Shown here piece after piece: positions 5,350 to 54,440 of a DNA stretch of 64,000 bases; the first letter of the stretch is position 1, and each line of letters opens with the position of its first letter. The stretch lies in NCBI GenBank assembly GCA_014084085.1, contig NPFB01000003.1:11576-75575 (forward strand), written 5' to 3'. This DNA is from Hondaea fermentalgiana (lineage: Eukaryota; Sar; Bigyra; Thraustochytrida; Thraustochytriidae). A program made the translations under genes and the position numbers. The notes below the pieces were generated by a model, which worked only from the letters and a program-made list of their open reading frames with translations, was not told the origin of the DNA and made no database searches.

Positions 5350-5393
<44 letters not shown>

Positions 5394-17252: not shown

Positions 17253-18584
17253 CTTTCTTTCAGTTGCGCGCAACAATCTCCGCTGAGGGCGCTCGTTGGC
17301 TTTGTCGCGGCTCGTATCGGTGTGGAAAGACGATTCTGAGCCAGCTCTCTCGGCCTCGTAGGCTGAGCCCTACAGACGGATTCTGCACGATGATCGTCAT
17401 CGATCTGAGACAATAGTATACATCATCTCGCTTTCGGGAGCGTAACTACCCGTTACGAAACGGTCGGTTTCGGATACGAATGTTCGACGGGCCATGATGT
17501 AGTAGGGAGGCCTAAAGCGAAGGGAAAAAGCGAAGGATGGGGAAGGGAAGGAAAGGTGAGCAGCGGTGGCGGCAGACACGGCAGGCAGGCAGGCAGGCAG
17601 GTAGCTCCAGGCAGGCAGACGGAGCAGAAAAAGGATTCTTCGGAGAAGGAGGAGAAGTAGAAGCAGCCAGGGTAAAACTCGAGGAAAAGAAGAAAGAAAC
17701 AACGAGACGACGAAACAACGAAACAACGAAACGCAAGAAAGAACGAAAGAAAAAGGAAACACAGTCGTAACTAACAGGCCAAAAACAAAGAAGAAGAAGA
17801 AACAGAGAAACAAAGAAGCGCCAGCCAGAAGAAAAGAGGAGAAGCAGCGCCTTCACTCACTGTCAAGGCGCAGAGAGAGCTGCGCCGCGAGCGAGCTTGC
17901 GCGGCTCCCGCTGACGCGGCCCGCGGTGCGCGCGAGGGAGCGAGGCTGGGCAGAGGGGCATCCTTCTGCCGGGCGGCAGGCAGCGAGGCAGCAGGCGGCG
18001 GGCAGCCCCGGCGGGAGGCGCGGCGCGGCGCGGGGCGGGAGGCGCGGCGGGCCGGCGCAACGTCCCGGGCGAGGCACTCGCGGCGCGTGAGATCGATCGG
18101 CCCAGGCGAGGAGAGGAAAGGAAAGCGAGAGCCCCGGCGAGAGGCGCAAACGGCAAGACGCGCGACGCGAGACCGGCGGGGCCCCGCGCAGCCCGCGCGC
18201 CGGCGCTGGCAGGCAGGCAGGCGGGGAGGCCGAGGCAGGGCGCCGGGCTCGCGCGCAGAGAGGCGTCGCGCGCGCTGGTTCGCCGCGCGAGAGAGCTCCC
18301 GAGCGAGACAGACGCTCGAGGAGAAGCAGGCAGGCAGATATTCTTGCGCCCCTGGCGCTCGAACTGCCCGCCGCCCCTGGACAGCAAAGGTGATAAGGAC
18401 AACAGGCTTTGCATTGCCTGCGCAGTCGAAGATCATCTGTCACCTCACCTGGAGGCACCTCGCGGTCGGTCGGTCTTCAATCTACGCCCATCGAGATTGA
18501 GAACAGCGGGGAGGTCGGCCACAAGCGAGTGTCAGGTGGCTCTCTCCGTCCGCAACAAATTGTATCTTTGGATTCCGAACGAAA
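17253..18584. promoter_or_regulatory. Divergent promoter and long GC-rich leader of the HECT gene
   Basis: 1.33 kb between divergent starts. It contains (GGCA)n at about 17578-17602, AAC/GAAA purine tracts at 17640-17830, and a CpG-rich block at 17870-18330 with several GCAGGCAGGCAG runs. Open frames across it are Arg/Ala/Ser-rich chance frames. It probably holds both promoters plus a long 5' UTR for the HECT mRNA. Confidence 0.55.
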
Positions 18585-21500
18585 ATGCTCTCTCGCGAAA
18601 CGAAGCGGACCAAGCGCGCACAAAGCCTTAATGAGCTATGTGCAGACAAGCTCAACAACCTCACGCGCGATGACCTTGTCTATATGATCAGCGCGGATAT
18701 TTGGAGAGAGACAGGCGAGCGTCGCTCACTTGTTGACACCCTACTCGAGCTCGTCCACTACCCAAAGCCTAGGGCTCCGCTTCAGAGCGAGGTAGCGCTT
18801 GAGAACCGGCTCGAGCGCGAGTTCGACAAGCTCAAGAGAAATCATCGAAGGAAGAAGCGACGAGGCACCAAGTCTGGCGCCGATGACGATGCCAGCGAGG
18901 ATATCGATCCTGGCAATGATGCAACCGCGGCTGCAGCTGCTGCCGCAGCTGCCGCGGTCGAGAAAGATCCTCGCCTTGCTCACCAAGACGCACGCGTCTT
19001 TCACCGGCTCTTGACCGAATGCAACCAAGATGTCCTCCTACAAAGCGCACTGATGAACCACGACTTTCTGCTTGGACATCCTATTGCTGAGGAGCCAGCA
19101 GCAAACAGTAGTAGCCGCATGTCATCAGAGGCGGATGTTGGCGAGGCCTCCAAGGCTGCAAGTCAAGATACGACGGTCAGCTCCAGCGGCTCCGGGGCTG
19201 ATGCCTCAAGCACCAGTGCCAGCGTAGACGCGGACGAAAACACAAAATCCAAGTCTGATGACGCGAAACAATGGAAGTCGAACCGCGTTGCGGCGCTTCT
19301 CTCCCTTGTATCTCCTAATGGACACTCTGCTGACGCAGCTGAACCTTTGAGCGGTGATGACGTTCGTACACTCGTTGATCGTGCCACACTCGATTTGCAG
19401 CCGATTCAGTCTGTGCTCATTGTCGCGCTTGTGCTCTTCGCCGAGAAGTCTGGCGGTGCACGCGTCGACACTCTCGACGTTTGCGGCCTTGTGGCACACG
19501 ATGTTGACACCTCGATGGCCGCATCCCTGCTCTTGGAACATTTTGGCCTCCTTGCGCAGGACTTCATCGCTTCAAAGGGAAGACAAGGGAAGCGAAGCAT
19601 TCACGCGCACCCTCTTACCTTTCTTCTCGTCCATGCGCTTCTTTGCAGACTTAATGCTGGCACCTCTTCTGGCTTTCTAAAACAGCCAGCGAAAGCTATC
19701 GTCCAGCGCCGTTGTCTCGCCATTTTAACGGCCAACTTTTACCACCTTGGACTTAAGCGCATCGCTCCAGCATCCGTCGGTCTAGGTCACGTTGTCAACG
19801 CGACGTCGCAAGGCACGACGTCCGACTTTGTATCTAGGCTTCGCGACGTCGTTGTACAGGTCGCACAAGCGTCATGGTCGCCAAGCTCGTCAAGCTCGCC
19901 CGCTCACGAAGGAGCACCAGCAGCATCAACTGCCGTTGCTGCCGCCGTCAATCAAGCAACCCTTTGCTGGGCTTTTGCTGTTACCTTTTTTTATCCTACG
20001 CAGAGTTCTCGACGCCAAGTGCTTTTCGAACTGTTGGAATCACCGCCGTCGGAAAATCCCTTACTGCTTGAGTGCCTCTGTGCGCAGCTGGCACAGCCAT
20101 CGCTTGCAGTGGTTGACATGGACATCGTGCGTGCCTTATTAAGCTCTGTCGCAGACAGCGATCGTGCCGAAATTGCGTTTCCGAGCTACCCTTCCGACTC
20201 GGAGACTACAATTGGAAAACTCGCATCTCTAGACAAATCAGGGTCCGAGTCCGCGATCACTTCTGGCGCCCATGATGATGACACACGAGAGGTGGAGGCG
20301 CAGGCAGAAATGGAAGAAAACATGTTTGCAGACCTCGATGACGAGGAGGCCATGCTGCAGCAAGCTCTGGCCATGTCTCTTTCAGCGGAGCCGGCAACAC
20401 CCCCGACGCCACCTTCTCCGGAACCCCGTACCATCCACTTCGCTGCAGGTCGCTTTCAAAAGGAGCTCTTGCGCATGATGCAGGACCATCTCTATCAGCT
20501 TTATGGGGATATTGGGGGTGCAGGCGATGGCCCCAGTGCCCGTGTCGAAGTCAAGCTTGCTTTGCAAGAGGCACGCTGTGCCGAGTCAATTGAACTGAGC
20601 AACAACGATCGCACCGCGACACAAAAGGCCGACAAGGATTGGGGAACGGCGCTTGCGCAACATCCACTAACTAAAGAGCGTCGCATCCATCAGTGGAGCG
20701 TTTCCTTGGACCGCTGCGAGAAAGGTCACGTTTTCATTGGCGTTGCAACGCAGAGTGCAAACACGAGCACGTACCTCGGCGGTGATCGAAATGGGTGGGG
20801 TCTCATTGGCACAAAGGTTCTCTGGCACAATCGATCCAAGTATCGCTCCTATGGAACTGGTTTTCGCACAGGCGATGTCATCACTCTGACTCTCGACACA
20901 GAAGAAGGTACCCTGTCATATCAATGCAGCGGGAAATCCGATTGGGGCGTGGCTTTTCGCGGTCTTGCTGATTTTTGCAATGAAGGTCTTTATCCAGCCG
21001 TTGCGCTGTATCAGCGTGGAGACGCTGTCACCTTGGTGGAAAACGCGACACAGCAGACGGACGCCTCTGGAACTGCGGATCTTATTCGCGACGTTAGCGT
21101 TGGTGAGCATTTCGGAATGATGCTTCCTCTGCCGTCAGTGGCTGCTCGGATGAATCGTGTAAATGATCGTCTATTGAGAGACGAGCTCGCGCTCCCGTCC
21201 ACCGAGTATATGCGTGAGCTGGTGAGGCAACCATCTCACGTTCGATGCGGTCTTCTCGAGCCACTCATTGCTACGCTTATTCTCTGGCCTCAGCATGGAA
21301 TCTCCATTCCTGTTGCCCTCGAGATTATCAAAATCGGTCTCTCTCTCCTCGCGGACCAGTCTAGCGCACCCGCGCCACCTCGTCATCCAAGGGCAGACGG
21401 GAAGTGGTCATTTTGCATGCATGAGCCTCTGAGCAAGACGTTGGAGGTGACTTTCAAGGAAGATCCTCAGTCAGGTGCTCTTTCGGCTGCTGACCCGTCA

Positions 21501-22837
21501 GGTCCGACCATTTCAGGGTACCGCACGGGTCGTCGCATCGATTTCACCCATCATCACGAGTCATCATCATCATCGTCGACTTCTGCATCGAGCAAGTCCT
21601 ACTCCGCAGGCGCGGTTTCTTCTACCTATTTGATGCGCGTCATGCCAGGAGGGCGCGCGATGGTCGGCCATTATGCTGAGAAACGCAATCCTGCAATCTC
21701 AGGCATTTGTTTCGCATATCTGACCAAGAGCGATGGTTCTTCCGCGTCTCCCCAGAATTTGCAATCGGTTCCCGCGCTCGATCCAAGTGTCTGGCAGCAG
21801 ATTCTTGGATTGCTCCTTGGCAAAATGGCGTCAATTGTGCTCCGCGGACGTTCTTTTGATGCTCTCGGCGCAAGCGACTCTGCAGGCGTAAGCGCACTTC
21901 GCAGTGCTGCCGGAACACCAACGCCAGCTGCAGATGATGTTCTGGGAAATCACGATGACGAAGATGACGATGACGACGAGGAGGAAATGGACGAGGATGC
22001 CGGAGATACGGACGACGCTGACGCGCAGGACCACGGGAGTGTTCCTCACAATCGCTCTGGAGATGAAAGTGACGACAATGCGACTGTAGGCGCCGGTGCA
22101 AGCGCGTCCCGTTCGTCCCCATCCGCTGCGAGTGAGAAGGAGATCCATCGTCTTCTGCGGTCTCGTCTTCTCGAGGGTGGTTTCTCCTCGCTCGCACTTG
22201 ACGACTTCCTCCGTCAGCAAAGCACTCGTGTCGAGGAGGGACCTGCACTACTCATGCTTTCTGGCCATAGGAATGTAGGAAGTGTGGAAGAGTTGACTTC
22301 CCCAAAGAGCGGAGATCCAGAGTCACCTGCGTCTGGTGCCCAAATAGAGTGTGGCTGGGGTCTCGACGATGAGAAAGACATTGCCTTTTTGCAAGCTTTT
22401 CTTCTTCATCAAGATGAGACGAGCTCTGAACAGGGCCAGGAGTATGCAATTGACCGGCTTGATCAATGGATGCTTCGCTTCGCAGGCAAAAGTGCCTTCA
22501 TAAGCGTTGGTGGGCATGCTATGCGGGCCGCACGCATTGCCACGGTTGCCGCTATGCTCATGCACACCGGTGTTCTTCAGGAGGCTCGTTTACTCTATGC
22601 ATGGATGCAGCAAACAGACAACTGGACTCAAGACAAGGATGTCGATGGAGTTCAACCCTCTCGGATGCTGACTGGCGTCTGGCGTGCCGCGCAACGCATC
22701 GTTGAATGGGCCATTCGCTCGAAACAGCAGAGCGGTTCAACGTATGGCGTCCTTGCAGAGGGGATTATGACGAAGGCTCGCTTTCTTCTCTCAGTGCGTC
22801 CCAGTGCCGTGCCCTTTCTTGACTTTCCTGTAGGAAT

Positions 22838-22869
<32 letters not shown>

Positions 22870-25800
22870 TGCAGCAACAGCAAGCGAAGCCGGTAGACGC
22901 CGAGCAATTGGGCAGCTCGAGCCCGCTTGGTGTTGAAACAGATTCAGGTGCAGCAGACGCCACCAAGCACATTTCTTTGTCAAGCTTGATCACTTCTTCG
23001 TTTGTCGATCAGATTGTGGCCGAGCAACCTGCTTCTGTCTCGCTAATTGACATTTTGGACCAGTGGAAACGGGTCGCCAAGTTCGTTACACGCAAGTCAG
23101 CATCCTTCCGAAGTCATCCCCAGGCGCTGGATGCCGTCATCAACTTTATCAAAGGCGGGTTCTCTGTCTCTCGTTTGCACGAGTCTATGCTGACTGCGTC
23201 ATGGCGCGCCACCCAGCGAGCCGCCGGGCTCAATTTGTTTTCGTTGTTCTTTTCCAAGCATCGGACCAAGACAATCAGCTTTCGGCATGTCTTTGGTGCG
23301 TCCGAGATTACCGTGCCACCTGCGACACGGCAGGGTGTCCTCGAGTGGATTGGGTCAGCCATGCAGGATGGAAAGACTCCCGCCATATTGGCGTCGTCCT
23401 CCTCGATGATTAGTGGTGCCACGCGCGGGACAATTCATCTCTCCGCCGCGACAAGATCAGGCGTAGGTTCGGGAACAAGCTCGCCAGCGGGCGCATCTCC
23501 GATCAACGCCGGGTCTACCTCGGATCAAGTGCGCGCTCCAGAAATGTCACCTCTTGATTTTGCAGACAGTTCTACAAACCCATTGTCAACAGGGGGTACA
23601 ACTTCCATCGCAACCGGAGCGACCGGCGAGTCAGAACTTCGCCAGAACAACTCTTCCGCCCCTCCGTCCACCGCAGAAGGCATGCAATTCACAGACACCC
23701 GTGGGTGTGGAAAGGAGCTCCAAAACACAGTCCGAGCTTCCTTTGAACATCTGTATTCTACACTTGCCGCCGACCTTGAACGCGCTGCAATGGGCGAGGA
23801 TGCTGCGCTGCAGCTCGGTATCATCAACGCTTGGAACCTGGTCCTCTCGTTTCATGATCATCAGTTTCTTTCCCGAATTGGAATCTTTCGCATCTTCCAT
23901 CAGGTCCTTACCTCTGCGCGGGCAGCCATCTCAGCCTTGGACGACGAAGCGGTCGAAGGCGAGCCGAACTCGCTGCGCCTGCAAGCGCAACATCGAATCA
24001 TCAAGGCCACGCTTATCATTGTCCATCGCCTGGCCTCGCAGATCGTCTCGTCCCGGGGAGGCGTTTATGCTGATGATGACTCGACGAGTTTCAGCCTTCG
24101 CAGCCCCACTGCATCTCTGCTCAATAACCTGAAAACGCACACTCGGCCCGTGGGCGCGGACACGCTGGGGAAGTCCGTCTTCGAGATGCTTTTTACAGAG
24201 CTCGAGACCGCGCTTGAGTCGACTGCCGAGGAGGAGTACGCGTACCAGGTCATCATGCTCCTCTTTACGATCACGGTGAATGGAATTAGGACCTGCATTC
24301 CTTTTCTCTCTTCCGCAGACCGCGTCGACATCCTTTTGCAAGCCTCGCGCTCTCCTTCACCTCGGGTTCAGCATCGCACGATTCGTTTGCTCGCGCGTCT
24401 TCTCCCAACCATTCGCCAGACTTCGCTCGTTAAAGAGCTTGTCGCCAACGTTGATCCTATCAGTCGCCTTATGGCTCTGGTCCAAGCTGCCCACCCAGAA
24501 ACTTTGTGCTGTGAACCTGATGCGGAGGCAAAAAGCGAAGCTCTTTTAGGAAGTGATGCCGTTTCTTCGTATGCGATGCGGGTGGGGCGTGCGTCGGACA
24601 CAGTCTCTCTTTTGCGGACGCTCATTAATGACAAAACCTCGCCTTGGGTGAATCATGTGCAAGACACTCTCGTTAGCATGCTGGGCAAAAGTTCACCATC
24701 TCGCGAACGCTGGGCTGCTGTGTGCGTTCTTGGTGGTCTGTTCGACCCCTTGCGTGTTTGTGGCAAAGTACAGTTCTCCCCTGCATGGCTCACGCGCGTA
24801 GATGAAAACAATTATGAGGAGATCAAGGCTCTCAGTCAGAAAGCTGCTGTTCTTGCGGCTCTCAAAGGTCCCAGACACGAAACGGCGCAGATTCTACTTC
24901 ACGAACCAGCTGCTGCTGCCGCAGCCGTCGCAGCAGCTGCGGCAACGGTGAATCAGGGAGCTGAGGCCTACACTGCGCCGCGGCTCGAAACAGGGGTCCA
25001 TGCAGGCCAAGTGAAGGACACGATCCGTCTCATGTCGGCAAGTCTGGACACGGAGCTCTTGGTCCCCGTTGCAGAGGTGCAAGTCTCCACGGAGCTGTCC
25101 GCCCCGTTGCTGAGCGTCTACAAGTCTGCACTTCAGGAATTGACTGCCGAAGAGCCCGCGAATCTTCCCTCGAGACATTCGTCGCCGGCTTCAATCAAAG
25201 GCGAGTCCGAGGAGGGCGTAACAATAAAGGGAACAGAGGCCGGAGCATCGGACTCAAAGGACGAGAACGAAGACGATGGCGATCAAGCTGCTTCGCTCGA
25301 TGTCGTATCACAGTCGAACTATGAGCGGTCCAATGACGCGGTCCAGCATGCCATGCTGCGCGCTTCCGTCTTTAAGAGCCTCGTTGCGCTTGGAGCTGAT
25401 CAGGTTGCCTCCAGCGAGCTTTTGGAAAAACTTCTCGAGGTTGCCACGGAGTTCACGCCAACTTCTGGCATTCGCGATTTGGCCAAGGTCGAGTCGTGGT
25501 GGCGCCATGCCTTGTTGCGGTTCAACGAAATTCGAGAAGATCATGCGCTTCTGCAGAAGACTGCGGAGAGCGACGCAGGCGCAGACGAAGCGAAAGGTCC
25601 GGATGCGGGTGGCGACAAGGCGAGTCACTCGGAGTCTGATGACGAGGAGGAGATAAGTCCAGAGCTTCGTACAATGATGGAGCTTGGAATGGGTTTTCCC
25701 AAGGAAGTGTGTCAAATTGCGCTTGAGCGCTGCAGTAACGACGTCGAAGCTGCCATCGACTTTTGCATTGAACACAATAGTGACATAGATGTTCTCGTTG

Positions 25801-28800
25801 AAGCTGCGGAGCGTCAGCGGCGTCGGAATCTAGAGGTCGCTGGAGCATCGTCCGCCAGGGGCTCTGGCGGGGGTCGCGAGGCTGCTGGAAATCAGGCTGC
25901 CTCGACGCGGCGGGCTGTCATTGTCGAGAAACTTATAGAGATGGGCTTTCCCGAACGCTACTGTGTGCGCGCAATCGATGCAGTTGGCGAGAACTTTGAC
26001 AATGCGCTCACCTGGATTCTTGGCCATGGTGATGAGCTCACCATGCAGGACGAAGACGAGCAAGAGCAGTCTGGAGGCAACGAAGGCGAGTCCAATGCCG
26101 ACGAGTCCAAGGACGCTACAGAGTCCCCTCGTGGGGATGATGCGCAAAAGGATGATCAGCAAGAGCACGCAGAGCCGCTGATTTCTTTACCCCCTGGCAC
26201 GGGAGGGCTCTCCGCCACAAGTGGCATGGACGTGGTCGCCATCTCCCCAGATCTTACCGTCGAAGTCAAGACGAGCGCAAACGGTTTCCCCAGCGTTTGT
26301 GCGCGCGATGTGCTGTTGCGCAAAGGTCTGTGGTACTATGAGGTGACCATCTTTACGGACAATTGCATGCAGATTGGTTGGGCGGACGCAGGATTCACGG
26401 GCAACGCCGGCGATGGCGACGGCGTTGGTGACGACGGGCACTCATGGTCTTTTGATGGATACAGGCAATTCGCATGGCATGCCAAGAGCAAACCATGGGG
26501 CCGCGCGTGGGCCAAGAATCAAGTTGTTTGCGTGGCCGTGGACCTCGACAAGGGTGACATGTGGTTCGGTCTCGATGGAGACTACGAGAACGGTATGGGT
26601 CTCATGGTGAGCGGGCTTTCCGAGGGAAGAGACTACTTGAGAGGCTTAACCCCGGCTGTCTCACTGAACCGGACCGAAAAACTCCAGTTCAACTTTGGAC
26701 AAAAGCCCTTTAAGTTTGGGCCTCCCGAGGAGAGCTTTCCTGAAGGCTCGTGGCGTCCAGTTGCAGCTGCAGTGCTCGATCGCGAATGCAACGCACGATA
26801 CTATCTCTGGCACGAAGACGCGCACGCGCCTGAAGTGGCCAAGCATTTCCACGACCATCTTGTCGAGGACTGTCTCGAGGAGGAAGTGCCCGCCTTCAAT
26901 GCGCGGGTCATCAAGGAGCGTTATTTTGCATCAGAGTCATCAGGGGCAAGCGTGAATGCCGCGGGATCTCAATCGAGCCATAGTGGCTCGGGGCGCTCCC
27001 ACTACCGTGTGCACGGTCTCGGCTCTCGGCACGGACGAGCGCGTACGCGAATGAATTTGCCAGACGCGAGCCGGGCCTCTCGCGAAAACACTGGAGCCAA
27101 GCGCGCTGGGCAGTCGTCGGGTACACCGGGGAAGTTGGACGAGGATCTCACGGAGGCCACCGACCTCGAGGCACTTTCGGCCGCTCCCTTGCACGAGGTG
27201 GTCGCAGACACGCCCAAGGCCCTGGCCAAGCTTCACGACGCCCCCTTGCAAACGGTGATGGCAACAATTTTGGTGGCCAGCAGATCTCTTGTCTGCTTGT
27301 ATGCGCGCCATTCCATCGTGATGCTCCTCGAGCGTTGGTCTTGCTTTGGGGCAGACCTGCAGGAGCAATTTGCTGCATCTCTTGCGTCGGGTCCGAGGAG
27401 ATCAGGCCTCTTTACGCAGCTTCTCAAGCTTGTCGCAAGCGATGTTCTCCCGCTCTCCCAGGCCGGTTTGGTCATGCAAACCGGAGCCATTCTCTCCTCC
27501 TTTCAAGTTGCTCTGAAGACGATTGTTGCTACAACAAGCATCGTAGATTCATTGATTGACGCCGTTGGGGCTGAGTTGGGCAGGGCGTCGATGCGAGCGT
27601 TTGGGTCGGTCCAATGGGATGACAATATGGCCCTTTCGCGAGTCTTTGCAGAAGCGAAACGCTTCGACCTTCCTGGCCTCCTGCGCAATGCTGCCCGCGT
27701 TTGTGCGGCGAGGGCTGGTGGGGCCGAACGAATTGTTCGAGGACCTAATGCAGAAGACATGCGGCTCAGCGACGTTGTGATTGCAGAGCTTCCGTCGGTA
27801 AAGCTGGCTCTCTGGTACACTGACTTTTTGCTCGGGGCAACCTCGCGGGACTCACGTATCGTGCGTAGTTTGTTCGCTGCTTGGACACTGTCGCTGCGCT
27901 CTCCAGGCGTCTCGCTTAAACGTCTGGCGGTGGACAAGCTATGCCAAATGCTCAGTGAAGTGGGGGGCGTCGAAGCTGCCGAACTGGTGTCGATCGTCCC
28001 CTTTGATCGCCTGCGCGAGCTCTCGCGTCGATTCTTGGACCGCGACGGCGTGACTTCCCCCGTGCACAGTCGTCTGGTGCAGTCGTTTGTGGAACTATGT
28101 ACGCTCGATGACGCAATCGAGCTTGCCGCTGAGGATATTGCGAGTTACGCCATTCGAGATGCCGATGATCTCATTGGTCCACGTCCTGACTCGTTCTCGG
28201 GGTCCCTGTTGCAGTATCCGATCAAGTTTGCCAGCTCAGAAGTTGGCGGAAATGAACGCAGCAAAGCGAGTTCCGGAGACCTTGGCGCAGACTTGCTAGC
28301 TTTGGCGCTTCGGAGCATTCATATCGGGGATCTTGTCGTGAGAGGTCCGGCGTGGGAGGGCGGTGACGAAGATGGGGGTGTTGGGTCAATTGGTTTCGTG
28401 GTTGGGCTCGAAGACAACCGGATCGTGGTTCGTTGGCGTCCGTCTGTCGTGGCAAAAGATGCAAAGACGAAACCATCTGCAACCACAACTGTGGAGGACG
28501 TTACCGACGAGAATGTCGGAGAAGCCGAGGCGGAAGGCGGATTGGCTGCGGCAGACTCTGCAGGTGATGCGTCGGACCATAACACGCAAAGAGATAGTGG
28601 TGCTCAGAACTCTTCCGAAGTATCGCTCGAGGGTGGAGAGAACGTAGACGGCGATGTTCACGAGAACGACAAAGTTGGTGATGACGATCACCATGACGAG
28701 GATGAAGAAGACGACAACGACGAAGACGACGACGACGAAGAAGAAGAAGATGATGATGACAAAGACGAAGGAGAAGACGAAGACGAAGACGAAGACGAAG

Positions 28801-31800
28801 ACGATGATCGAGAGGGTGACGATGCGGACGGCGGCAGCCTCATGGACGACAGCCTTCTGAAGCGCTATGAGCCCGTCGACCTGGTCAGTGGCGAATGGAG
28901 GGTAGTTCCTCTTCGGTTCGATTCGGACGAGAACAAATTTGCAAGGCTTGATCTGAATGCGCTGCAAGAAGCTGAGGATAAAGCGGAGGCGGAAGCGTCG
29001 CGTAAGAAGCGTGCTTTTCACGTCGTACACTCATCGCGAAGCATTCACGATAATCAAGCTACTTTGGGCGAACGGCTTCGTCTAGGGGCGCAATTGTGGC
29101 TGATGGAGGATCAGAACGCTGGAACATTGCTCTTGCCGGTCTTCCATGCAGCCGTGCATGTGGAAGTGAGCCGGCCAGAAAAGGAGGTTCTGCGCCTTGT
29201 CGAAACGAAGCTACTTCGTGGGTCGCCATGCAGAGGCTGGGAGTCCCGTTTTGGGTCCGCAGCGTGGCGCCCAGGCACGGAGTATGTTTTGCGAGAAGAC
29301 GAAGCATCGCGACGTTTGACCGGGACATTCTCGGTACGTATCCCTGAGATGATGGTACCGCCGGAAGTAAACGATCTGGAGGCGCGTAAGAGAGATTGCG
29401 AAGAACTCGAGCAGATTGAAAAGGACGCTCGGTCCTCCTCGCCGTCCTCAAGCTCGGAGAGCTCGCGAAGTGGTCGTGGCCACGGGGGCTTGGGTGGTGA
29501 AGGTGGGGCCGGAGGTGCAAGCGGCGTCCAGCGGGTCTTTATTCAACGGGGCGAAGCGGAGCAGGCGATTGCTGTTGATATTTCTTCTCTTGAGGATCTC
29601 GGCGACTCGGACTTGCTTGAAGCCCTGTTGCGGCCTCTAATGGGTGGCGGCGGAGGAGCGGACAGCGCTGACATTCGCCGTCTCGGCCGACGTGCTGCGC
29701 AGGCGTTTGGGCGTCAGCATGAAGCCTCGACGACATCATCCTCGCAGCAGTCAGGCCGAGCTTCGGGGGATGGAGCTCGCCACGAGCACCGAGCATCGAG
29801 CGCCATCAGCTCAACGAGTTATAGTCAAGATAGCGAATATATGGATGAGGCCAACACTGCACTCGAGGCCGAGTACCTTCAACCAATTGAGGTTATTCTT
29901 GGCGGCAAAGTCAGTGCGACGGTCCAAGCCACGCGGCTCTGGACGGTGCATGAGGTGCTCAAGTCCGCGGGAGTCTCTGAAGGCGTGCGAGGATTTGTCG
30001 TCCGGGCCCGCCAAGAACAAGGAAAAGAAGTCGAGGACGATCTTGCGAAGAGCGCACCGACCAGCGCGCTTGTGTCCGAGTTCTGCTCTTCCAAGGAGCA
30101 GGCATCGGTAGAGCTCCATGTGGACGAGTCGACTTCCGTGCTCAGTGGCGACCGCAAAGACTCAAAAGAGACCGGGGCTGAAGAGGGATTGCTCGAATCT
30201 AGCGAAAGCTCCAAAGCGTCTGAATTGGAGCCTCTTGTCGTGCACGGCACGATCGAGGTCGCCGCGCACGAATTATTTCATCTGGATGCGGATGTCAAGG
30301 GGTCTTCGATGCTTTTGAGCGAGAATGACGAGCTGGTGACGCTGAGCTCGTTTGATATGGAGTCTCGGGGCCTTGTCCTTGGAACGGTCGGTTTCAGCGG
30401 CGGTGTGCACTATTGGGAGGTTAAAATCGAGCAAGCCTCGCACGAATATGGCTCAGTGTTTGTGGGCGTGTCTGAGCGGCCCCCGGGCGTGTATCCAGCG
30501 GGCACGCAGATGGCGTTTCTTCGACGCTGGGATCGCTCACCGGCTGCGTACGGCTATGTGAATTTCCGCGCCACGTTGGAAACGCATGCATCTCAGCCTC
30601 AAGGCAACGAACAAATCTATGGAGAGTTCTATGGCGCCGGTGACACGGTTGGTGTATGTCTGGACATGGACCAAGGGCAACTGTCATTTTTCATGGACGG
30701 GATCAAGTATGGTCAGCACACGATGAAGGACCTAGGCATTGCGTTTGGGGCGTCTCAAATTGAGGGCAAGGCGGACGCGCGTGCAGATCGCGCGTCTGCA
30801 TTGACTCTATACCCGGTCATCGGGCTCAGGCGCTCCCGTGGGAACAAGGTTCGCATCTTGCACAAGCACTTCACCGTTCCGCGGCGATGTCCTGACCAAG
30901 TATTGCGCGACATACAGACTGTGTCCGCGCTACTTCGTGATTTTTGGCAGGCTGGAGACGGCGCCGAAACTTCGCTCCTCCCTGGTGGGATGGTGGACCG
31001 CGCGTGGGCTCATTACCAACGCTGGTCACAGCACCGGCTCCGTCGGTACCAGTGTCGCGCAAAGGGGCAGTTCGTGGAGGTGGACATTTCTGCTGCGGCG
31101 TGCGAGCGTGCAAGCGGGGATCACGTACAACTCGAGAACGGGCGGCGTGGCCTTCGTGCGGGAGACCGGGTCCGTGTACTGCAAAGCTGCGGCCGGGACC
31201 TCGAGGCCTCAGAGGAAGCATGCGTTCTGGGAGTGTACAACGGTCGCATATGGTATCGCGTAGAGTCGCAGTCTGGTGGTGGTCACGAAGGTATGGAGGA
31301 AGGTGCTTCTCACGCATGGTATTGGGACCCCGAAGAGCTGGGTCTTCTCGAAATCCTGCACCAAGTTCCGGACGAGGAGGCCCCAGAAGCTGTGGCAGCG
31401 CGCCACAGTGATGCTTTACCTGTCATTGACACTGCTGAGGCCTTTGCTGCGCATCTCGCGGGTTGGACCACTCAGGAAGATGGCCTGCTTGTGCAACAAG
31501 TGAATGAGCGGTGCAATGTGTTGGGTGTGGACCCCTTAAATGCTGAGCCCTGGGACTTTAGTGGAGTTCTTCCTCATCGAACATCGGTATCAGTAATTGC
31601 AAGAATTGCCTTGCTCCGGCTGTGGAATTGCATGGCGAAGCGCGTGCTCCCGCAGGTGGACCTGGACGGTCCGCTGGGTGCGTCGCTGCGGCGACACAGG
31701 CAATTGCTCTTTACGTGGACCAAAAAGACCTTTTTTGACCAAGTGCTAGCGGCAACAACGACGCCAACGCCGCTCGCTTCAGACGAATACGATGATCCCC

Positions 31801-33062
31801 CGCAGATTCGCAATGTGAATGTAAATCGGATTCGTGCCGCGCCGCCCAAGCTCGTGACAATCGACAGCGCCGACAAACGATTGCAAGCGTCGGTCTTTGG
31901 ACAACTCTTTGTAGAAGTCGCAAAGTGGTCTTCGCACAGCTTACGACGCGCCTATGTTGGCAAGGGCCATGGTGGGCAACGACGGGCTTTCAAGGTGAAA
32001 TTTTTGGGAGAAGGCGTGAAGGACTATGGCGGCCCGTACCGCGCGGTCTTTGAACAAGCCGTGGACGAGCTGCAAAACGACACGGAGTGGGCAGACGCGC
32101 GTAATGCTTGTCTCCTGCCCCTTTTGGTGCCGAGCCCCAACCGCGCGACAAATAGCGGTGACCTTGGTCGAGACAAGTACTGCTTCTCCCCTTCGGAGAA
32201 GAATCTGAAGCGGTTTGTGTTTTTGGGCAAGCTTGTGGGCATGGCCGCTCGGCATGGCCTGCAAATGGGCCTCGACTTGCCGTCGGCGTATTGGCGTCGT
32301 CTCGCTCAGCTCGACGTGGGATTTGGGGCGCTCGAGGAAGTGGATAAGGTCTTTACGAACTCGATGCGCATGATCAGCAAGCTGGCCGCGGATGGCCCAC
32401 CCGATGATGCGACGTCGCTCTCTGACGTGCTTGGTGTTGAACGATTTCTCGAGGTGTCGTTGTCGGACGGCTCAATTGTGCCCGTTGTTCCGGGCGGCTC
32501 GAAGACTCCTCTGACGTTTGAAAATGCAAGTCGTTACGTGGAACTAGCTCAAGAGACGCGTCTGCACGAGGCGCGCGAGCAGCTCGAAGCATTTCGCGCT
32601 GGACTGAGCGCGGTGGTTCCAGTGGAGATCTTTGCGCTCTTTACCGAGAGCGAGCTGGAGACTCTTCTTTGCGGGCGCAAGGAGCTTGACGTGGGCCAGC
32701 TGAAGACGTGCACAGAGTACGAGGGCGTCTCGCCATCGGATGAGCACGTCAAATGGTTTTGGGAGGTCCTCGAAGAGATGTCAAGCGAGGAGCGCACGGA
32801 GTTTTTGCGATTCTCGTGGGCTCGTTCGCGCATGCCTGCATCGACAGCGGACATGCAGAGCTCTTTCAAAATCACTGCGCCTAGCGGAAAGGCCGCGGAA
32901 GAGCCTGACAAGTTTCTGCCGACGAGTCAGACTTGCTTTTGGCAAATGTCACTGCCCAAGTATTCGGACAAGGAAACACTTCGGAAGAAGCTCCTCTTGG
33001 CCTTTGAGTGCTCGCTCATGGATGGCGATTTCCTCCAGCGCTCGGCGGAGGGATGGCTTTAA
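18585..33062 (+). CDS. Giant HECT E3 ubiquitin ligase with UIM, UBA, MIB/HERC2 and three SPRY domains
   Basis: 4825 residues in one uninterrupted exon of 14.5 kb; ATG at 18585 in AAAATG context. HECT ligases take ubiquitin onto a Cys before passing it to substrate. Domains in order: a UIM-like helix at about 585-603 (MLQQALAMSLSAE); SPRY 1 at about 700-815 (HVFIGVATQSAN...GWGLIGTKVLWHN); a Gln run near 1418-1435; two UBA domains at about 2359-2400 (MMELGMGFPKEVCQIAL) and 2441-2486 (LIEMGFPERYCVRAI); SPRY 2 at about 2547-2700 (GLWYYEVTIFTDNCMQIGWA); a MIB/HERC2-type domain at about 3247-3290 (GDLVVRGPAWEGGDEDGG); an acidic tract at about 3352-3416; SPRY 3 at about 3912-4055; and HECT at about 4441-4825. 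The catalytic Cys is Cys4784 in SQTCFWQMSLPKYS, 41 residues from the end. Architecture is closest in spirit to HERC1/HERC2/HECTD1, but no RCC1 or ankyrin repeats were seen. Confidence 0.93.
22838..22882 (+). repeat. CAG/CAA run encoding polyglutamine in HECT gene
   Basis: About fifteen Gln codons, interrupted once by ATG, in a linker of the HECT ligase near residue 1420. It is one of several CAG tracts in coding sequence of this window. Confidence 0.88.
28640..28830 (+). repeat. GAC/GAA/GAT-rich tract encoding a long acidic stretch
   Basis: Roughly 60 almost purely Asp/Glu codons of the HECT ligase between the MIB/HERC2-type domain and the following folded region. Acidic tracts of this kind often contact basic partners such as histones or ribosomal proteins; no partner can be inferred here. 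Confidence 0.85.
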
Positions 33063-33466: not shown

Positions 33467-36400
33467 CTAGTCAAAAGACACCAGGACAACGGAGATATTG
33501 TCCACAGAGTGGACGAGAGCATGCTTTACGAGTGCATCGGCGGCGACCTGGATATCGTTCTTTTCTGAGAGCGAGTGAGAAACAATCTTTACAGCCTCTT
33601 CATTCGACACAGTGTCCCAGAGACCGTCTGTCGCAAGGATGAGGAAGCGATCGGTCGCAACAATGGGCTCCGAAATGATATCAGGCTTGGCAATGACGAT
33701 TCCCTTCGAGAGGAGCTCATCGTCCTCTGGGGAAGGACCTGTGGGTGTCATGTCGGCCAGGCGTTCAATTTCATGGCCCTTGTGCATGATGTCGCCAAAC
33801 GCTCGAGACACCGCGAGCGAGCCGTCGACTTGGCCTTTACGATTGACGGTACCTCCTGCCGCGCGAATGCGAGCCTTTTCGTCTTCGCGCGACGCCTTGT
33901 GGTCATCGGAGAGCTGCACGGCCTTACCGTCGCGGCAGAGCACAGCGCGCGTATCACCGATCCATGCGACGGTGAGCAACCGCTCCGCTGTGGCCTTGTC
34001 ATGCGACACGAAGGCCAAAAGTGCGGTGGATCCGGTTTTACGATACTCGTCAACAGCTGACGAAGCGTCGGCGCGATCACCCTTTGTGCGGAGGAGCGAC
34101 TGACGCGCTTCGCCGTTGCTGATCTTTAGACGTTGCGCGACGATCGCCGACGCGGCCTTGTGCAACATGGCGCGATCGAATTCGAGACAGCCCGTCAGGA
34201 TGGCAGAATCGAGGTTCTCCGGGAAGCCAGGTTGATTCGCAATGGTCCGGTGCAGCGACTCCTTGAGTAGCTCCGAGACGAGCACGCCGCCATGGCCGTC
34301 AAAAACCGCAGCGTAAAACAAAGCTTCGTGCTTGGACGAAGACGAGGAGAACCAGGAGTCGCCACCCGACTTGCTGAGCTTGGAGCAGATGGAGATGCAA
34401 TCTTCCATGCGGGCACGATTATTTTGTTCCTTGCTTGAAGAGTAACGCACGTTTGCCCACGCGACCTTTTTCCCGCCGCGGATGGCATCGGGGAGCGGCG
34501 CAGAAAAGAGCGGGATACCCAAAGGCGGGCCGTCCTCATCTTCCTCGTTGGCTTCGCCCTTGGCTTCGGCGGTGGACGAAGATTTATCTCCATCGTTGCG
34601 CTTGTCATTCATGCGGCCAATGTCGTACTTGTTGGTCTGCTGAGAGTACTCGCTTTCATCGTCAGAGTTGAGGTCAATGTCGCCGTCCACCATCAAATCG
34701 ACATCCTGCTTGAGCAAAGCATCGAGGTCGACGTCCCCCCTTGGGGCAATGTCCGTTTCGTCGGGATCCATGATATCGCTGCGTGGCGCGGACATGCTCG
34801 AGCTCGGGGAGAAATTGTGGAGTGCAAAGCTGCTGCTGCCGCGAGACTGAAGGCGGTCGATGGCTGCTTCCCGTTCCTCTTGGGAGGTGGAAGGTCCGGC
34901 GCCGCCGTCGAAGCTTGCGAGAAAGTTGCTGGGCCGGCCTGAATTGTCGTCGCCCTCTGCTCCCTCCGCCTCGGCGAGGAGCTCCCGGGCGAGAGGCAAG
35001 AGCATCTCAGAGCCTTCTTCTGTGACCCACTCGTGGTCCATGACCTCCTCGAGGTTGGGGCGCGTAAGAGGGTCCTTTGAAAGGAGGCGCTGAATCAGGT
35101 TCTTGAGATGAGGCGAGTAGTTGCGCTGGTTCCAGTCGCTCGGGAAGTGGAGTTCGTCGTTTTTCACCTTTTTCGCAAGTTTGATCTCGTCGTCGGACAT
35201 CCAGGGGGGCACGCCGGTGACCATCATGAAGAGCGTTGCGCCGCACGACCACAGATCGACGGCTGGGCCATCGTACTCGTCGTGGTCCTCCACGAGGAGC
35301 TCGGGGGCCATGAAGGCGGGCGTACCAGTGACACCAGAGATCCACTTTGTGCCACCAGTGATCATGCGAGCGGCGCCAAAATCAGCGATCTTGACAATGT
35401 TGTCCTTTGTGAGAAGAAGGTTTGCTGGTTTGATGTCCCGATGAATGACGCCTTGGGCGTGCAGGTAGTGGAGACCGAGGAGAAGGTCTCGGAATCGCTC
35501 GCGCGCGACATTTTCCTTGAGTGGTTCGTTGTTGTCGAGGCCGTCCATGAGCGCGCCGTTCTCGCAGTATTCGGTCACAATGTAGAGATGATCATCAGCG
35601 GGGTCGTCAATGACGGCGACCAGGTTGACAATGTTGGGGTGGCGGAGGCGCTTCATGATGGCGACCTCTTGACGCATTTCGTCGAGCCCAGGCGTGTGAA
35701 CGCTGACGTTGTCTTTGATTTTGGACTTGTCGATGATCTTGATGGCGTATTCCTCGCCTGTCTTTTGGTGGATGCAGAGGCGCACGCGGCCAAAGGTGCC
35801 GCGCCCAATCTCGCGGCGCAGCACGAATCCGTTAATGACACGGTGTCCGCCCTTGCGGCTCGAGTTGACGACGCTGGTTTCGTCGATGAGCTTGCTGGAG
35901 GACATGATGTGACCGAGGGAGCGATTGCCGCTCTCAAAGGAGAGGCGGCGGGAGTTACCTGAGTCTACCGAGGGATTGCGCGTCTTGTTTCGCGCCGCGC
36001 CGCGCTTCGATCGACGACGACGGATGACCTTGGTGTCGGTCTGCAAAAGCTGACTGAACTCCGAGTCCTCCTCCATGAGAGCCTGGAAGTCTTTGGCCTT
36101 GAGCTCAAAACAGATGAGCTGTTCGGATGCGCGCACGCTGGCGAGACGCGGAGCGCCGCTCATGAGGGCCATTTGGCCAAAGTTGTGGCCCTCGTATAGA
36201 TGCGTCGTGACCTCGCCGTTTTCGACGACTTCGGCGGATCCCTTTGCGATCATGTAAAAGGCGTCGCCGACCTCTCCCTGCGTGACGACGAAGTCGCCCT
36301 TTTCAAAGGGGAGTGGCGTGAGGCGGGCTACGATCTTGCGTTGCATGTCAGGGCGCAGTCTTGCGAGGAGCGGGATTTTCTGCACGACCATGAAAACGCG

Positions 36401-36979
36401 GATGTTTTCGTACTTGTCGAAGGCATCCTTGGAGAGGTACATGACGGTGGTTTTGCCGACGGCGGAGACGTTGGAGTTACGCACCTGGCTGAAGATGAGT
36501 GCCTGCTCGCCAAAGAAGTCGTGCGTGTAGAGATGGGTAATTTCGCCGACGTCGTCGCGCCACACGACGGCTTCTCCGTCGACGATGATGTACATGCGAT
36601 CGCCCATTTCGCCCTGGGTCACGATACGGTCATCGTCCTCGTAGTGCTCGACGCGAAGCTCCTCAAAGAGCTGGCGCTGATGCTCTTCGGGGAAGCGCGC
36701 GAAGAATGGCACTGCGCACAGGACCTCGAAGTTGGTCCGGACGATCTCTTTGCGCTCTGCCTCGAGCTGGGCGGAGGTCAACTGGCCGTCCTTGGTTGCG
36801 CTCGCAAAGAACTCCTCGTCCTCGTCAATGTCTACGAGGTCATCGTCGTCCTCGTCGCTGCTCTCCCCCGTGCCGCGGCCGCTGCTGCTCACCTCCTCGA
36901 GGTCGCTCTCTTCGTCGCTGCCGTCGTCCGACTCGTAGTCGTCCGCCTTGCCGAGCCGCATCTTGCCTCGTTCCTGTTC

Positions 36980-37017
<38 letters not shown>

Positions 37018-37219
37018 GCTTCTTGCGCTTGCGGCGGTCCTCCTCGTCCCGGCGCTCGTCGCGGTCGAGGTCGTCGTCGAGGTCTTCGTAGTCCTCCTCC
37101 TCGCGCGGCTGCTGCTGCTGCTGCTGCTGTCGGCGAGGCCAGCGTCCCGCGCTCGCGCCCGTCGGCGACGCCTTGTCGCGCTTGGGCCCGCGCGCGCCGA
37201 AGAGCCGCAATGGGTTCAT
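33467..37219 (-). CDS. Cyclic-nucleotide-regulated protein kinase fused to a PP2C phosphatase
   Basis: 1250 residues, one exon, ATG at 37219. The N-terminus is basic with Gln runs, then acidic (to about 150). cNBD-A spans about 162-274 (DFFGEQALIFSQVRNSNV) and cNBD-B about 277-384 (NFGQMALMSGAPRLASV). The kinase spans about 460-731: GRGTFGRVRL, Lys494 (AIKIIDK), HRDIKPAN with Asp595, DFG, GTPAFMAPELL. Activation-loop and APE features look CAMKK/CAMK-like rather than AGC. An acidic linker follows, then PP2C at about 917-1250 with RMEDC, AVFDGHGG, GSTALLAFV, AWIGDTRAVLCRDGKAVQLSDDH, VSRAFGD and ATDGLWD. cNBDs bind cAMP or cGMP and relieve kinase inhibition in PKA/PKG; PP2C is a metal-dependent Ser/Thr phosphatase. 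One chain would therefore both add and remove phosphate under nucleotide control. cNBD-B has Gln where FGE is usual, so its nucleotide affinity is uncertain. Confidence 0.93.
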
Positions 37220-37611
37220 GCCTCGCCTGCGCCTGCGCCTGCGCCTGTCTCGCCGCGCCGCGCCTGGCCTCGCCGCGCCGCGCCCGCCGGGATCCTCCGC
37301 GCCGCGCCGAGGGCCTGGTCGCGCGCGCTTGGACCTCCGCGAGTGGACTGTTTGCTGCTCTGCTCTGCTCTGCTCTGCTCGCTCTGGCTGCTTGATTCTG
37401 GTTTCCTCGTCTGTTTGTCTGTAGTAGTACTATGCTGGCTGCCTGCGAGGGAGACAGAGGGATCAATCAATCAATCAATCCACCGCAGGCAGCCAGGTAG
37501 TACTCGTACTACAGGCAATCGAATCAAGCCATCCGGCACACGATCCGTCCACCGAATCAACCTCAAACTTCACATCAATCCATCCATCCACCATGGCCGT
37601 CGGCGGGACCT

Positions 37612-37652
37612 GCGTGCGTGCGCGCGTGCGTGCGTGCGTGCGTGCGTGCGTG
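37612..37652. repeat. (GCGT)n microsatellite
   Basis: About ten GCGT units, one interrupted by CGC, upstream of the cNBD-kinase-PP2C gene start on the minus strand. Confidence 0.88.
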
Positions 37653-38270
37653 CTTTTGGCGCGTGTGCACGTGTGCTGCAGCTGGCAGTGGCTGTGGCTA
37701 CTGCAGGTAGACGGAAAAAGGGGGACTCCGAGGGGGGTGTGCGCGGCGCGGCACCTGCCTCGGCAGCAGCCAGCTAGATACTACTAGTAGTCACGCTAGT
37801 AGTTGAGCTCAGCAGGGCCAGAATGGACACGTGCAGGCGGGCAAAGAACACTGCGGGGCCCACCTTCTGTATAGATAGTTTGATTGTCGCGGCGCCGCGG
37901 CTGCGACGGCGGGGCTCTGACCGGAGAAGTGCTTTGGCGGCTCACGAGGCGCAGCAGGAGACAGCTGTAGCCAGCAGTGGCCTCGGTGGAGCGCAGCTTT
38001 GTCTCTGGCTTCAAGATGTGTGAACGCGGAGGAATTGGATACGAGCTGCGGGCACTGCAAGACATTACAAGCCAAAGCAAAGCAAAGCAAAGCAAAGCAA
38101 GCAAGAGTACAGGTTGCGCGCTGCCGTCAACTACAGCGGTGGCGGGTGATCAGAAAGAATCACGCAAGATCAATCGAATTGTTTCTCATGGAGATCGATC
38201 GGCCCGACAGTAAGGGGCAAGGATGAAGCTTATTTGACGCTTCCAAGAGCGCGGGAGCGTCACTGTCATC

Positions 38271-50981: not shown

Positions 50982-53900
50982 TTACTGGGACTGCTCTGCC
51001 AGAAGCTCCTCGAGACCAGCCCTGAAGCGCGTCACCGCCTTGTCGATCTCGCTCTGTGCTGCTGCGTATGAAAAACGAACTCCATAGGCAGCGCCAAAGG
51101 CATCACCCGGAGGCAGAGCGAGGCCATGGTCTTGGATAAGGTAGCTGCACAAGTCTGTGGCAGACGAGATGGCACGACCGCTCTTGGACTTGAAGCCCTT
51201 GGACAGGTAGTAAGACACGTCCGGGAAAACATAGAAAGCACCACGCGGAACGGGGCAGACGACATGCGGGATGTCACGGAGCGCCGAGACGATGCTATCG
51301 CGCTTAACACGAAGCTGATCATACAGAGGCACAAGCATCTCATCAGGTACTTGAGTGAGTGCAGCAATGCCCGCAAATTGAGAAATTGACGACGCGCAGG
51401 AGTTAAGCTGTGACTGCAGCTTGAGCGCAGCCGACATGATGCGCTCGTCTGGGGATGCCAGGTACGCCAGACGAAAGCCAGTCATGGCATAGCCCTTGGA
51501 AAAACCATTGACGATCATGGTGCGCTCGAACATGCCGGGGATCGAGGCAAACGATTTGTGCTCCAGACCGTCGTATGTGAGCCGTTCGTAAATCTCATCG
51601 CTGAGCACGAGCACGTGGCGAAATTGGGGCTCGCGAAGAACGGCGGCAAGACCTTCGAGCTCCGCTTCCGTGTACGTGCACCCCGTTGGGTTGCACGGGT
51701 TGCAGAGAATGAGGATGCGCGTCCGCGGTGAGAGAGCCGCCCGAAGATCCTCGGGCGATAGAATGTAGTCCTTGGACGGCTGACGATCAACAATGATGGG
51801 CTTGGCCCCGCTAAGACGGACAATCTCGGGGTACGACACCCAGTAAGGCGCAGGCACAACCACCTCGTCGCCAGCGTCACAAAGACCCATGATGGCACAA
51901 AAAAGAGCCTGCTTGCCGCCATGCGTAATAAGCACGTGCTTGCCTGCTTCGTATTGCACGCCCTTGCGTCGAGCATAGTCGTTGCAGATGGCCTCCTTGA
52001 GCTCATACCAGCCCCCAACGGGAGTGTAGCGCGTTTTGCCCGTCTTTGCGGCCTCAACAACGGCGTCGAGGACGGGCTGCGGCGGGTCAAAGTCGGGCTC
52101 GCCCACGGTAAGCGTCGTGACGATGTCGCGCCCCTGACGCTGAAGCTCGAGTGCCAATGCGTGCGTCTCCGAGGTCTTGGATGGCTGAATGCGCCCCACA
52201 AAGCGGCTGAGACGCGTTTTCGCAGCGGCACCAGAAGCATCCTCCGTCGTGGGCTGGTTGCGGAGTTGGTCCATGATGTGGTGCATTGCGTTCTCCAGTC
52301 CCTCGAGCTGCGCCGAAGAGTTCGGATTGCACTTGTACAGCGCGCTGAACAAATCAAATGAGTCCTTGCAAGTGTTGTTCACCAAGGAGAGCAGGGTCTC
52401 AAAACCCTTGGTATTGATCGGCGTCGATCGGAGCTGCAACTCTGCCAGCATACGACCTGTAAAATGAGTGACGAATTGGCTTCCTGCAGCAGCCTCGTCG
52501 TGCATCTCGCATGACATGTCGACCATCCGGCACCCGGCGCGGCGAAAGATGTCCAGGAAAATCTCACACCGGCGATCCGCCTGCACCAGGCCACGAGAGG
52601 TGCTGCCGTTTACGCGCACCTTTTCGTACACGAGAGGCAAGCCGCGCCACGAGTACTTGCCCGATTCGGGGCCGAACATCGGGTGCGTGCACAGGATATC
52701 AGCGTCCTCGGGAAGCAAGACCTGCAAGACGTTTTTGGGCAGGGTTTTGACCGACAGCACATCCACAACGAGGACGCCCTTGAGTAGGTGGCTCGGGATG
52801 AGACGCACAACTTTTTCAAAGGAAAGGATTGAGACGGAAATGACCAAGCAGTCAAGACCTTGCGCGGCGCGGAACATGTCTTCTACCGAAGTACAGTACG
52901 TGGCGCCAATCTCCTTGGCCTCGGCAGAGTAGTCGGCGCGCGAGCATCCGAATACAGAGTGATGACGCGCAAAGGTTTTGGCGAGGAACTGGCCAAAATT
53001 GCCAAATCCAAGAATACCAATCTTGAGTCGCTTGTTGGCACTCGACATTGAGGCGCTCGCGTTCGAGACAACGGAAGAGCTCGAAGATCCGACCGCTGCC
53101 TCACGGAGAGGAGGCGTCGCGCTCCGGTGCGCAGTCATGGTCGTGCCGGCAGGGACGCCCACAGCCTCTGCAACGTAGTCGGTCAGCACGGCGTCCTTGG
53201 GGTACGAACCTAGCACGCGAAGGTAGCGCGCCAGCTCAGAGACGTGGCGAATCGCGTTCTGAACCTTGGCATCCGACAGCGACCCAATGCAGTCGACATA
53301 AAAGATGAATTGAAACTTTCCATCTCCCTCGACTGCGCCACCCAGACCTTGGACATCAGTCGCTCCGGATCCGCTAGCATGAACATCCGCAGGCCCGGTC
53401 ACATCAGCTCCAGCGGATCGGAGACGCTCCAGGAGCTCACGGTCCTCGGAAGGAATGAGTTGTTCGTCAGCCTTGCCCTCGACGACGACTTCGAGTCCCT
53501 GCAGACGGAGCTTGTCCGGGCGTGACTCAAGCTTGGTCAAACTGATATCGCGAAAGCTGAACGCGGAGAGCGCACGCACCAACACCCCCGGGTAGTTGAC
53601 GAGCGAGAACACGAGGGAGGTTTTCCAAGGGTACGATGGGGCGGAGTGCATTGGGCGCGGAGGCAGCGGAAGCCAACGCTTGGATAAGAGCAGAAAACGG
53701 GTGTAGTTGTCCTCATCGTCCTCGATGCCAGAGTCCAGCAGCTCCAAGCCGTAGCGATCTGCAGCAAGCGTCGACGCGATCGCCGCGCAGTCGTGGAGGT
53801 TCTCGGTGGCAATGATCTTGGCGCTACCCGCCGTGTCATAGCTCGACTCGCCCTTGAGCCCGTGACTGCGCAGAAAGCCATCGCACTGTGCAAGTGCCTG

Positions 53901-54221: not shown

Positions 54222-54440
54222 GGCTGCGACCACAGACGACGACGGCTGGGCTGCCTTTTCTTTCTTCTCGACGAGCTGTGTGCGTGCGTGGACACACGCG
54301 GACGACCGTGCGTGCTCGTGTGCCGTGTGCTCGTGTGCTCGTGTGCTTGCCTGTCTGCCTGCCTAGGCAGCCTGCCTGTACGTGCGCTTGCTTGCTTGCT
54401 TGCGTGCGTGCAAAGGTTGCCTTTGCAAGACTGCTTGCTG

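Follow-up and report, generated by a model that had tools for sequence, protein, structure and literature searches.

PKGs of apicomplexans and animals carry cyclic-nucleotide-binding domains (cNBDs) N-terminal to a kinase of the AGC type, and the kinase of the plant PP2C-cNBD-cNBD-kinase fusion, represented by rice PKG and Arabidopsis PP2C19, is likewise of the AGC type. In the plant fusion the PP2C is N-terminal and the kinase C-terminal (PMC11775391); in rice PKG, cGMP promotes the kinase and inhibits the phosphatase (PMC11638329). Oomycete kinase-cNBD-PP2C proteins are already in print (PMC10925823, PMC3019232): five PPMs of Phytophthora sojae with kinase and CAP domains are reported as single transcripts and called bifunctional by their authors, in passages that describe no kinase assay on them (PMC10925823). 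In P. infestans a PP2C is present in four kinases of AGC, CAMK and OTHER type, and eight AGC and CAMK kinases carry cNMP domains (PMC3019232). The window analysed here is a 64,000-nucleotide stretch of Hondaea fermentalgiana (contig NPFB01000003.1, positions 11,576 to 75,575), and at 33467-37219 (-) it holds a gene for a 1250 aa cNBD-cNBD-kinase-PP2C protein. One database kinase bearing the name of this species (P0120) matches the genome at 99% identity over 347 residues; Hondaea belongs to the thraustochytrids (Labyrinthulomycetes, Bigyra). The four modules are those of the plant fusion, however the PP2C is C-terminal, with none at the N-terminus; the cNBDs precede the kinase as in apicomplexan and animal PKG, from which the protein differs in having a CAMKK-type kinase. 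By sequence, the protein is a thraustochytrid member of a conserved stramenopile cNBD-cNBD-CAMKK-PP2C family. It is unusual for one chain to combine opposing enzymes under a single sensor. Such a fusion appears to have been built by two eukaryote lineages from the same parts in opposite orders, a convergence that can be tested at the bench.

The gene is a single open frame of 1250 codons from ATG, with openness extending to 37429; the start Met at 37219 is backed by P0001, the closest relative, whose first residues are MNRLRLFG against MNPLRLFG in the window protein. A search of the 36.0 Mb assembly (238 contigs; best 37 of 316 candidates scored) returns one full-length match to the protein. 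Pfam assigns cNMP_binding to two stretches (whole-protein E-value 7.1e-32, the better one at 304-385) and also finds a Pkinase domain at 467-732 (8e-72), and a PP2C domain at 925-1236 (4e-57); all of these calls are far over the cut-off and chance is no issue. The earlier note's account of a single 1250-residue frame with two cNBDs, a kinase, and a C-terminal PP2C is therefore confirmed; the protein is not unique, as the oomycete kinome and phosphatome papers already list such proteins and the family is conserved across stramenopiles.

A protein search with residues 140-1250 (best 7988 word-sharing candidates scored) finds 58 proteins at E <= 1e-30, and these were scanned together with the window protein using profiles seeded from its own domains. 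The same cNBD-cNBD-kinase-PP2C order, for which the earlier note had proposed profile searches, is present in 31/58 (P0001-P0012, P0014-P0031, and P0037); one detected cNBD followed by kinase-PP2C is seen in three (P0032, P0033, P0036), four start within the kinase with PP2C after it (P0013, P0034, P0035, P0039), and two are kinase-PP2C alone (P0038, P0043). Four are PP2C-first, three with cNBDs between (P0042, P0045, P0050) and P0048 without; the remaining 14/58 have no PP2C. Named oomycetes account for 14 of the 17 rows P0014-P0030, from the genera Saprolegnia, Aphanomyces, Phytophthora, Peronospora, Nothophytophthora, Pythium, and Albugo; P0036 is from Cafeteria roenbergensis and P0037, with the full order, from a chrysophyte. 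The STKc-CAP-PPM proteins of P. sojae (Ps354449, Ps544740, Ps568223, Ps313333, Ps480075) likewise hold kinase, cNBDs, and PP2C in one chain, a likeness known by domain content with the order left aside; PInf_014449 of P. infestans (P0021) matches the window protein in domain order and catalytic residues. The oomycete-type rows P0014-P0030 are mostly longer than the window protein (1,220-1,900 aa, most >1,600) through longer linkers. UniRef names nine rows 'cGMP-dependent protein kinase'; the NCBI label of the Saprolegnia row is CAMKK/CAMKK-META. No description of the CAMKK identity or of the stramenopile-wide spread of the family was found in the titles and abstract openings of the papers listed from a mostly open-access literature; the main text of an Aurantiochytrium proteome paper has no mention of phosphatase, cGMP, or cyclic nucleotide (PMC12221091), and none of the Hondaea papers listed bears on this subject. 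Presence in Bigyra, oomycetes, and a chrysophyte suggests a single fusion before the three parted; the deep forks are weakly supported, so transfer or parallel assembly may also account for the spread.

Catalytic residues were surveyed in 35 longer family rows (the window protein, P0001-P0012, P0014-P0033, P0036, and P0037). All 35 keep the kinase Lys and Glu, the HxD Asp, and the Asp of the DFG position, with HFD in two Albugo rows and DLG in the chrysophyte as variants. The RxxxED, DGHxG, DGxxD, and DN residues of the PPM/PP2C family are kept in 34/35, the exception being P0008, in which the Arg is replaced by Lys and the final two motif groups are gapped. P0007 and P0008 also differ from the rest in ending with FGG instead of FGD, and the GST column is gapped in P0021.

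The kinase domain (residues 461-737; 35009..35839, -) has full catalytic motifs by alignment: the glycine loop at 472, K494, E518, HRD at 593, DFG at 613, and GTPAFMAPE. Against solved structures it matches CAMKK2 at 1.2e-65 and CAMKK1 at 1.9e-61, with MARK as the next family at 5e-48, a CAMKK lead of about 13 orders of magnitude in E-value. Foldseek matches the kinase part of an AlphaFold2 model to CAMKK2/1 at TMt up to 0.94 and 40-42% identity; for the whole model PKG entries come first by E-value, in our opinion because of the cNBD and kinase combination. A kinase tree of 62 rows (17 family rows chosen from the 35, together with named kinases, kinases of this genome, and plant-order rows) places the family on the side of the CAMKK, GRIK, and TOS3-like kinases (43 rows, 91/100, open fork), a side that also takes in the plant-order row P0048 as part of a CDC15-like group. 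The SIK3, CIPK, Kin4, and CHK2 rows group separately (8 rows, 91/78), and a third group contains the PKG-like kinases and five other plant-order rows (8 rows, 92/81). In all trees plant sequences are represented by stand-ins, namely plant-order proteins of this genome and of the databases. An approximately unbiased (AU) test rejects the union of the 17 family rows with the three PKG-like and five plant-order kinases (p 0.000639, outlying row P0048 omitted), and with it the placement inside the plant PP2C-PKG group that the earlier note had named as a refuting outcome. The kinase is accordingly classed as CAMKK-type by sequence, fold, and tree, as that note had read it; an AGC/PKG identity is ruled out by the motifs, structure matches, tree, and AU test despite the PKG-topped Foldseek list. 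PKG-like genes elsewhere in the genome have YRDLKPEN with the AGC signature GTPDY or GTPEY, and lack a PP2C.

The nearest kin of the kinase domain are CaMKK1/CaMKK2, GRIK, and the TOS3-like kinases, which it resembles in sequence and fold; compared to CaMKK, the window protein has cNBDs in front, a PP2C behind, and no detected stretch resembling a calmodulin (CaM)-binding site. The stretch was sought with a crude charge/hydrophobicity rule on the 110 residues after the kinase, with 200 shuffle rounds: it is present in 20/27 CAMKK-type rows with usable tails (shuffled mean 6.7, maximum 12), 6/34 family rows (shuffled mean 5.2), and 6/20 other kinases (shuffled mean 4.1). As the family count is near its shuffled value and the CAMKK count is not, the family resembles background; no such basic/hydrophobic stretch is found in residues 741-921 of the window protein by this rule, which also misses it in 7/27 CAMKK-type rows. 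An acidic motif after the kinase was considered as a feature common with the CAMKKs and rejected, fitting 26/34 family rows but only 4/22 CAMKK-type rows; the pattern was written after viewing the sequences and is thus given no weight.

The PP2C (PPM) domain (residues 922-1247; 33479..34456, -) has full metal- and phosphate-binding motifs, with RARMED at 935, DGHGG from 974, DGLWD from 1198, and DN from 1241 by alignment, so that all four motif groups of the family are present. In a PP2C tree of 56 rows, 20 of them family, whose bootstrap had not settled, the family falls in a 21-row clade (93/95) that also takes in L032, a stand-alone PP2C of this genome, and leaves P0038 outside. The PP2Cs of four plant-order proteins (P0042, P0050, L023, L024) form a separate clade (100/99) with P0045 nearby, and that of P0048 lies on the same side of a weak split (33/18) as the family, with no clear placement. 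The AU test rejects a union of the family and these four plant-order PP2Cs (p 0.0043; P0045 and P0048 omitted). A tree of the cNBD tandem (22 rows, no AU test) separates the family (85/87) from PKG-like and four plant-order rows (86/83). In all three module trees the family has modest support. With kinase, PP2C, and tandem cNBDs all lying apart from most plant-order rows, a fusion independent of the plant PP2C-cNBD-kinase type, as the earlier note had proposed, is supported. L032 (G000:C25:98000-101000) sits on a long branch; it is perhaps a released copy and perhaps drawn in by long-branch attraction.

Plant-order PP2C-cNBD-cNBD-kinase frames are also found in this genome, namely L023 (G000:C206:307300-312500) and L024 (G000:C221:167300-172500). 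HRD is replaced in them by SRG and ARS, respectively, with loss of the catalytic Asp; this agrees with P. infestans PITG_08304 and PITG_09375, whose kinases are reported as inactive (PMC3019232). The stramenopile fusion, with both catalytic centres conserved, would be a cleaner subject for study than the plant-order genes of the same genome with their degenerate kinases.

The sensor region consists of cNBD-A (residues 164-279; 36383..36730, -), whose phosphate-binding cassette FGEQALIFSQVRNSNVSA has Glu 238 and Arg 247, and cNBD-B (residues 281-400; 36020..36379, -), whose cassette FGQMALMSGAPRLASVRA keeps Arg 358 and has Gln 349 instead of Glu. The cassette Glu replaced in site B is the ribose-binding residue, and a Thr following the cassette Arg favours cGMP in PKG. 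Site A of the window protein reads FGE...RN and site B FGQ...RL; the FGQ (residues 347-349) that the earlier note pointed out is real and is no stray change, as it is shared by the second cNBDs of P0001-P0008 and by no others in the family, the chrysophyte having FGQ in site A. The oomycete-type rows P0014-P0030 have FGE in both sites (17/17), whereas the window protein has it only in site A. RT or RS is present in 15/17 of these rows in site A and 17/17 in site B; RS accounts for P0025 in A and P0027 in B, and in site A of two Albugo rows the Arg is replaced by His. We read the site-B FGQ as one change, presumably away from Glu, that became fixed in the window's lineage, and it suggests altered or lost binding at that site. 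Cyclase-family matches at 21 places and PDEase_I matches at 12 in the genome indicate that cyclic nucleotides can probably be made and removed.

The protein is proposed to be a cyclic-nucleotide-gated kinase/phosphatase switch whose enzymes act in opposition on shared targets, a reading to which we give a probability of about 0.5. The cNBDs would stand in for the control that Ca2+/calmodulin exerts on ordinary CAMKKs. In the absence of nucleotide they would restrain the kinase in cis, as in PKG, and the tethered PP2C would dominate; cyclic nucleotide would then free the kinase, binding in this lineage chiefly to site A, given the Gln that replaces the ribose-binding Glu of site B. Kinase and PP2C would in this way drive the same or overlapping targets in opposite directions. 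CAMKK-type kinases usually act on the activation loops of CaMKI-like and SNF1/AMPK-like kinases; these loops, or the protein itself, are the candidate targets. Kinases of this genome with fitting activation loops are L034 (HTACGTPGYVAPE), which groups with L035 near DAPK in the kinase tree, and L030 (GTACGSPCYAAPE) in the SIK3/CIPK/Kin4 group; by resemblance the loop of L034 is CaMKI-like and that of L030 SNF1-like. An AMPK beta subunit is also found. If it is true that the kinase acts on AMPK/SNF1, there would be a direct tie between cyclic nucleotides and energy control in a group to which lipid-producing thraustochytrids belong. With rice PKG as precedent such a writer/eraser switch is a reasonable inference, rather than a demonstrated property of this protein.

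Several observations weigh against a switch of this kind. Site B is without the key Glu, and neither site matches the PRTA cassette of the oomycetes, RN and RL standing where that cassette has RT. L028 and L036, other kinases of this genome, are also on the CAMKK side of the tree, so the AMPK/CaMK kinase duty need not fall to the window protein and its target is a guess. The family kinase clade has modest support (87/70) and also contains P0062, P0063, P0065, and P0129. The AlphaFold2 model, built with 34 sequences (mean predicted local distance difference test score 76, predicted template modelling score 0.41), shows four well-folded domains and a second linker of low confidence; at a score of 0.41 domain packing is not reliable and no contacts are drawn from it. 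The literature search found no biochemistry for any cNBD-cNBD-CAMKK-PP2C family member. In the plant-order protein PP2C19 of Arabidopsis, the PP2C alone is sufficient for the function that was tested, and rescue was retained by mutants of the kinase and of the cNMP domains (PMC11775391).

Foremost among the alternatives is autoregulation in cis, where the PP2C would chiefly dephosphorylate its own kinase, linkers, or N-terminus to give a self-resetting kinase instead of an eraser acting on other proteins. Physical tethering through linker 2 (residues 738-921; 34457..35008, -), a long flexible stretch that is largely of low confidence in the model and by eye rich in Ser, Asp, and Glu, speaks for this; CAMKK-type loops such as GVTGTPAFMAPE are not known to require loop phosphorylation, which speaks against it, and we hold it to be unlikely. 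Somewhat less likely still is a sensor that binds another nucleotide or nucleoside, or none, with the cNBDs being structural rather than sensing cAMP or cGMP. The FGQ and RL of site B and the RN of site A fit such a sensor, and kinetoplastid PKA-type sensors with altered cassettes bind nucleosides; however, FGE and Arg are retained in site A, and the oomycete-type rows preserve FGE in both sites together with the RT/RS counts given above. An output through the phosphatase, with a kinase domain that mainly provides docking or a scaffold, as proposed for plant-order proteins, is improbable here. In its favour, the PP2C is necessary and sufficient in Arabidopsis PP2C19 (PMC11775391) and L023 and L024 lack kinase catalytic residues; against it, the HxD and DFG-position Asp are kept in every one of the 35 longer rows of the family. 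Descent from the plant PKG, as a stramenopile form with its PP2C relocated, would explain why the four modules are identical in kind, but the three trees and both AU results set the family apart from most plant-order rows and both fusion types are present together in this genome, which leaves this reading with almost no probability.

Two neighbouring genes or a misassembly read as one are likewise ruled out by the conserved domain order and the coding linker, and we consider an artefact extremely unlikely. The order is kept in the 31 database proteins, of which P0031 is named as an MMETSP transcript, and kinase-PPM genes of P. sojae are reported as single transcripts (PMC10925823, Fig. S2 legend). 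The linker region is coding, as judged from the G+C content at third codon positions of codons 771-950 (0.68-0.72) and from the alignment of P0001 to its two halves at 52% and 59% identity.

In a wider and tentative scenario that we consider doubtful as a whole, an early stramenopile CaMKK-type kinase would have lost calmodulin control and gained a tandem cNBD and a PP2C, becoming a one-chain bidirectional switch that tunes phosphorylation of AMPK/SNF1- and CaMKI-like activation loops to the level of cyclic nucleotide; this would be a second, convergent counterpart of the plant PKG switch, connected to another kinase cascade, that predates the Bigyra/oomycete/chrysophyte split, with the ligand shifted in thraustochytrids.

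Two database rows stand out by their labels. P0013 lies on a 241-kb contig and is labelled Batrachochytrium salamandrivorans BASA81_005648; in the PP2C tree it forms a pair with the family member P0009 (100/99) and is either stramenopile contamination of the Batrachochytrium assembly or a transfer. P0062, a cNBD-kinase labelled as an archaeon metagenome-assembled genome, sits among the family kinases beside the chrysophyte row and is probably a mis-binned protist contig. A tblastn search against phages returned 48 records. Coverage stays below 80% in all of them, and the five that were listed match the kinase stretch.

Outside the enzymatic and sensor domains, the N-terminal region (residues 1-160; 36740..37219, -) is Q-rich and acidic, with first residues resembling those of P0001, and linker 1 (residues 401-460; 35840..36019, -) has a basic RRRRSKR stretch and is modelled as a helix followed by a low-confidence part. 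An antisense open frame at 36200-37777 (+) has a long leucine run facing the Q-rich N-terminus and looks like a by-product. Elsewhere in the window, a 1126-aa frame at 50982-54362 (-) joins prephenate dehydratase, prephenate dehydrogenase (N), and class I/II aminotransferase domains as a three-step aromatic amino acid fusion; an uninterrupted 4853-aa frame at 18501-33062 (+) is a giant ubiquitin ligase that carries three SPRY stretches and UBA-like domains and has a HECT domain at its C-terminus. An NBR1-like protein (ZZ and N_BRCA1_IG) and a MINDY-3/4-type deubiquitinase with UBA_4 are located at 3546-5897 (+) and 825-2435 (-).

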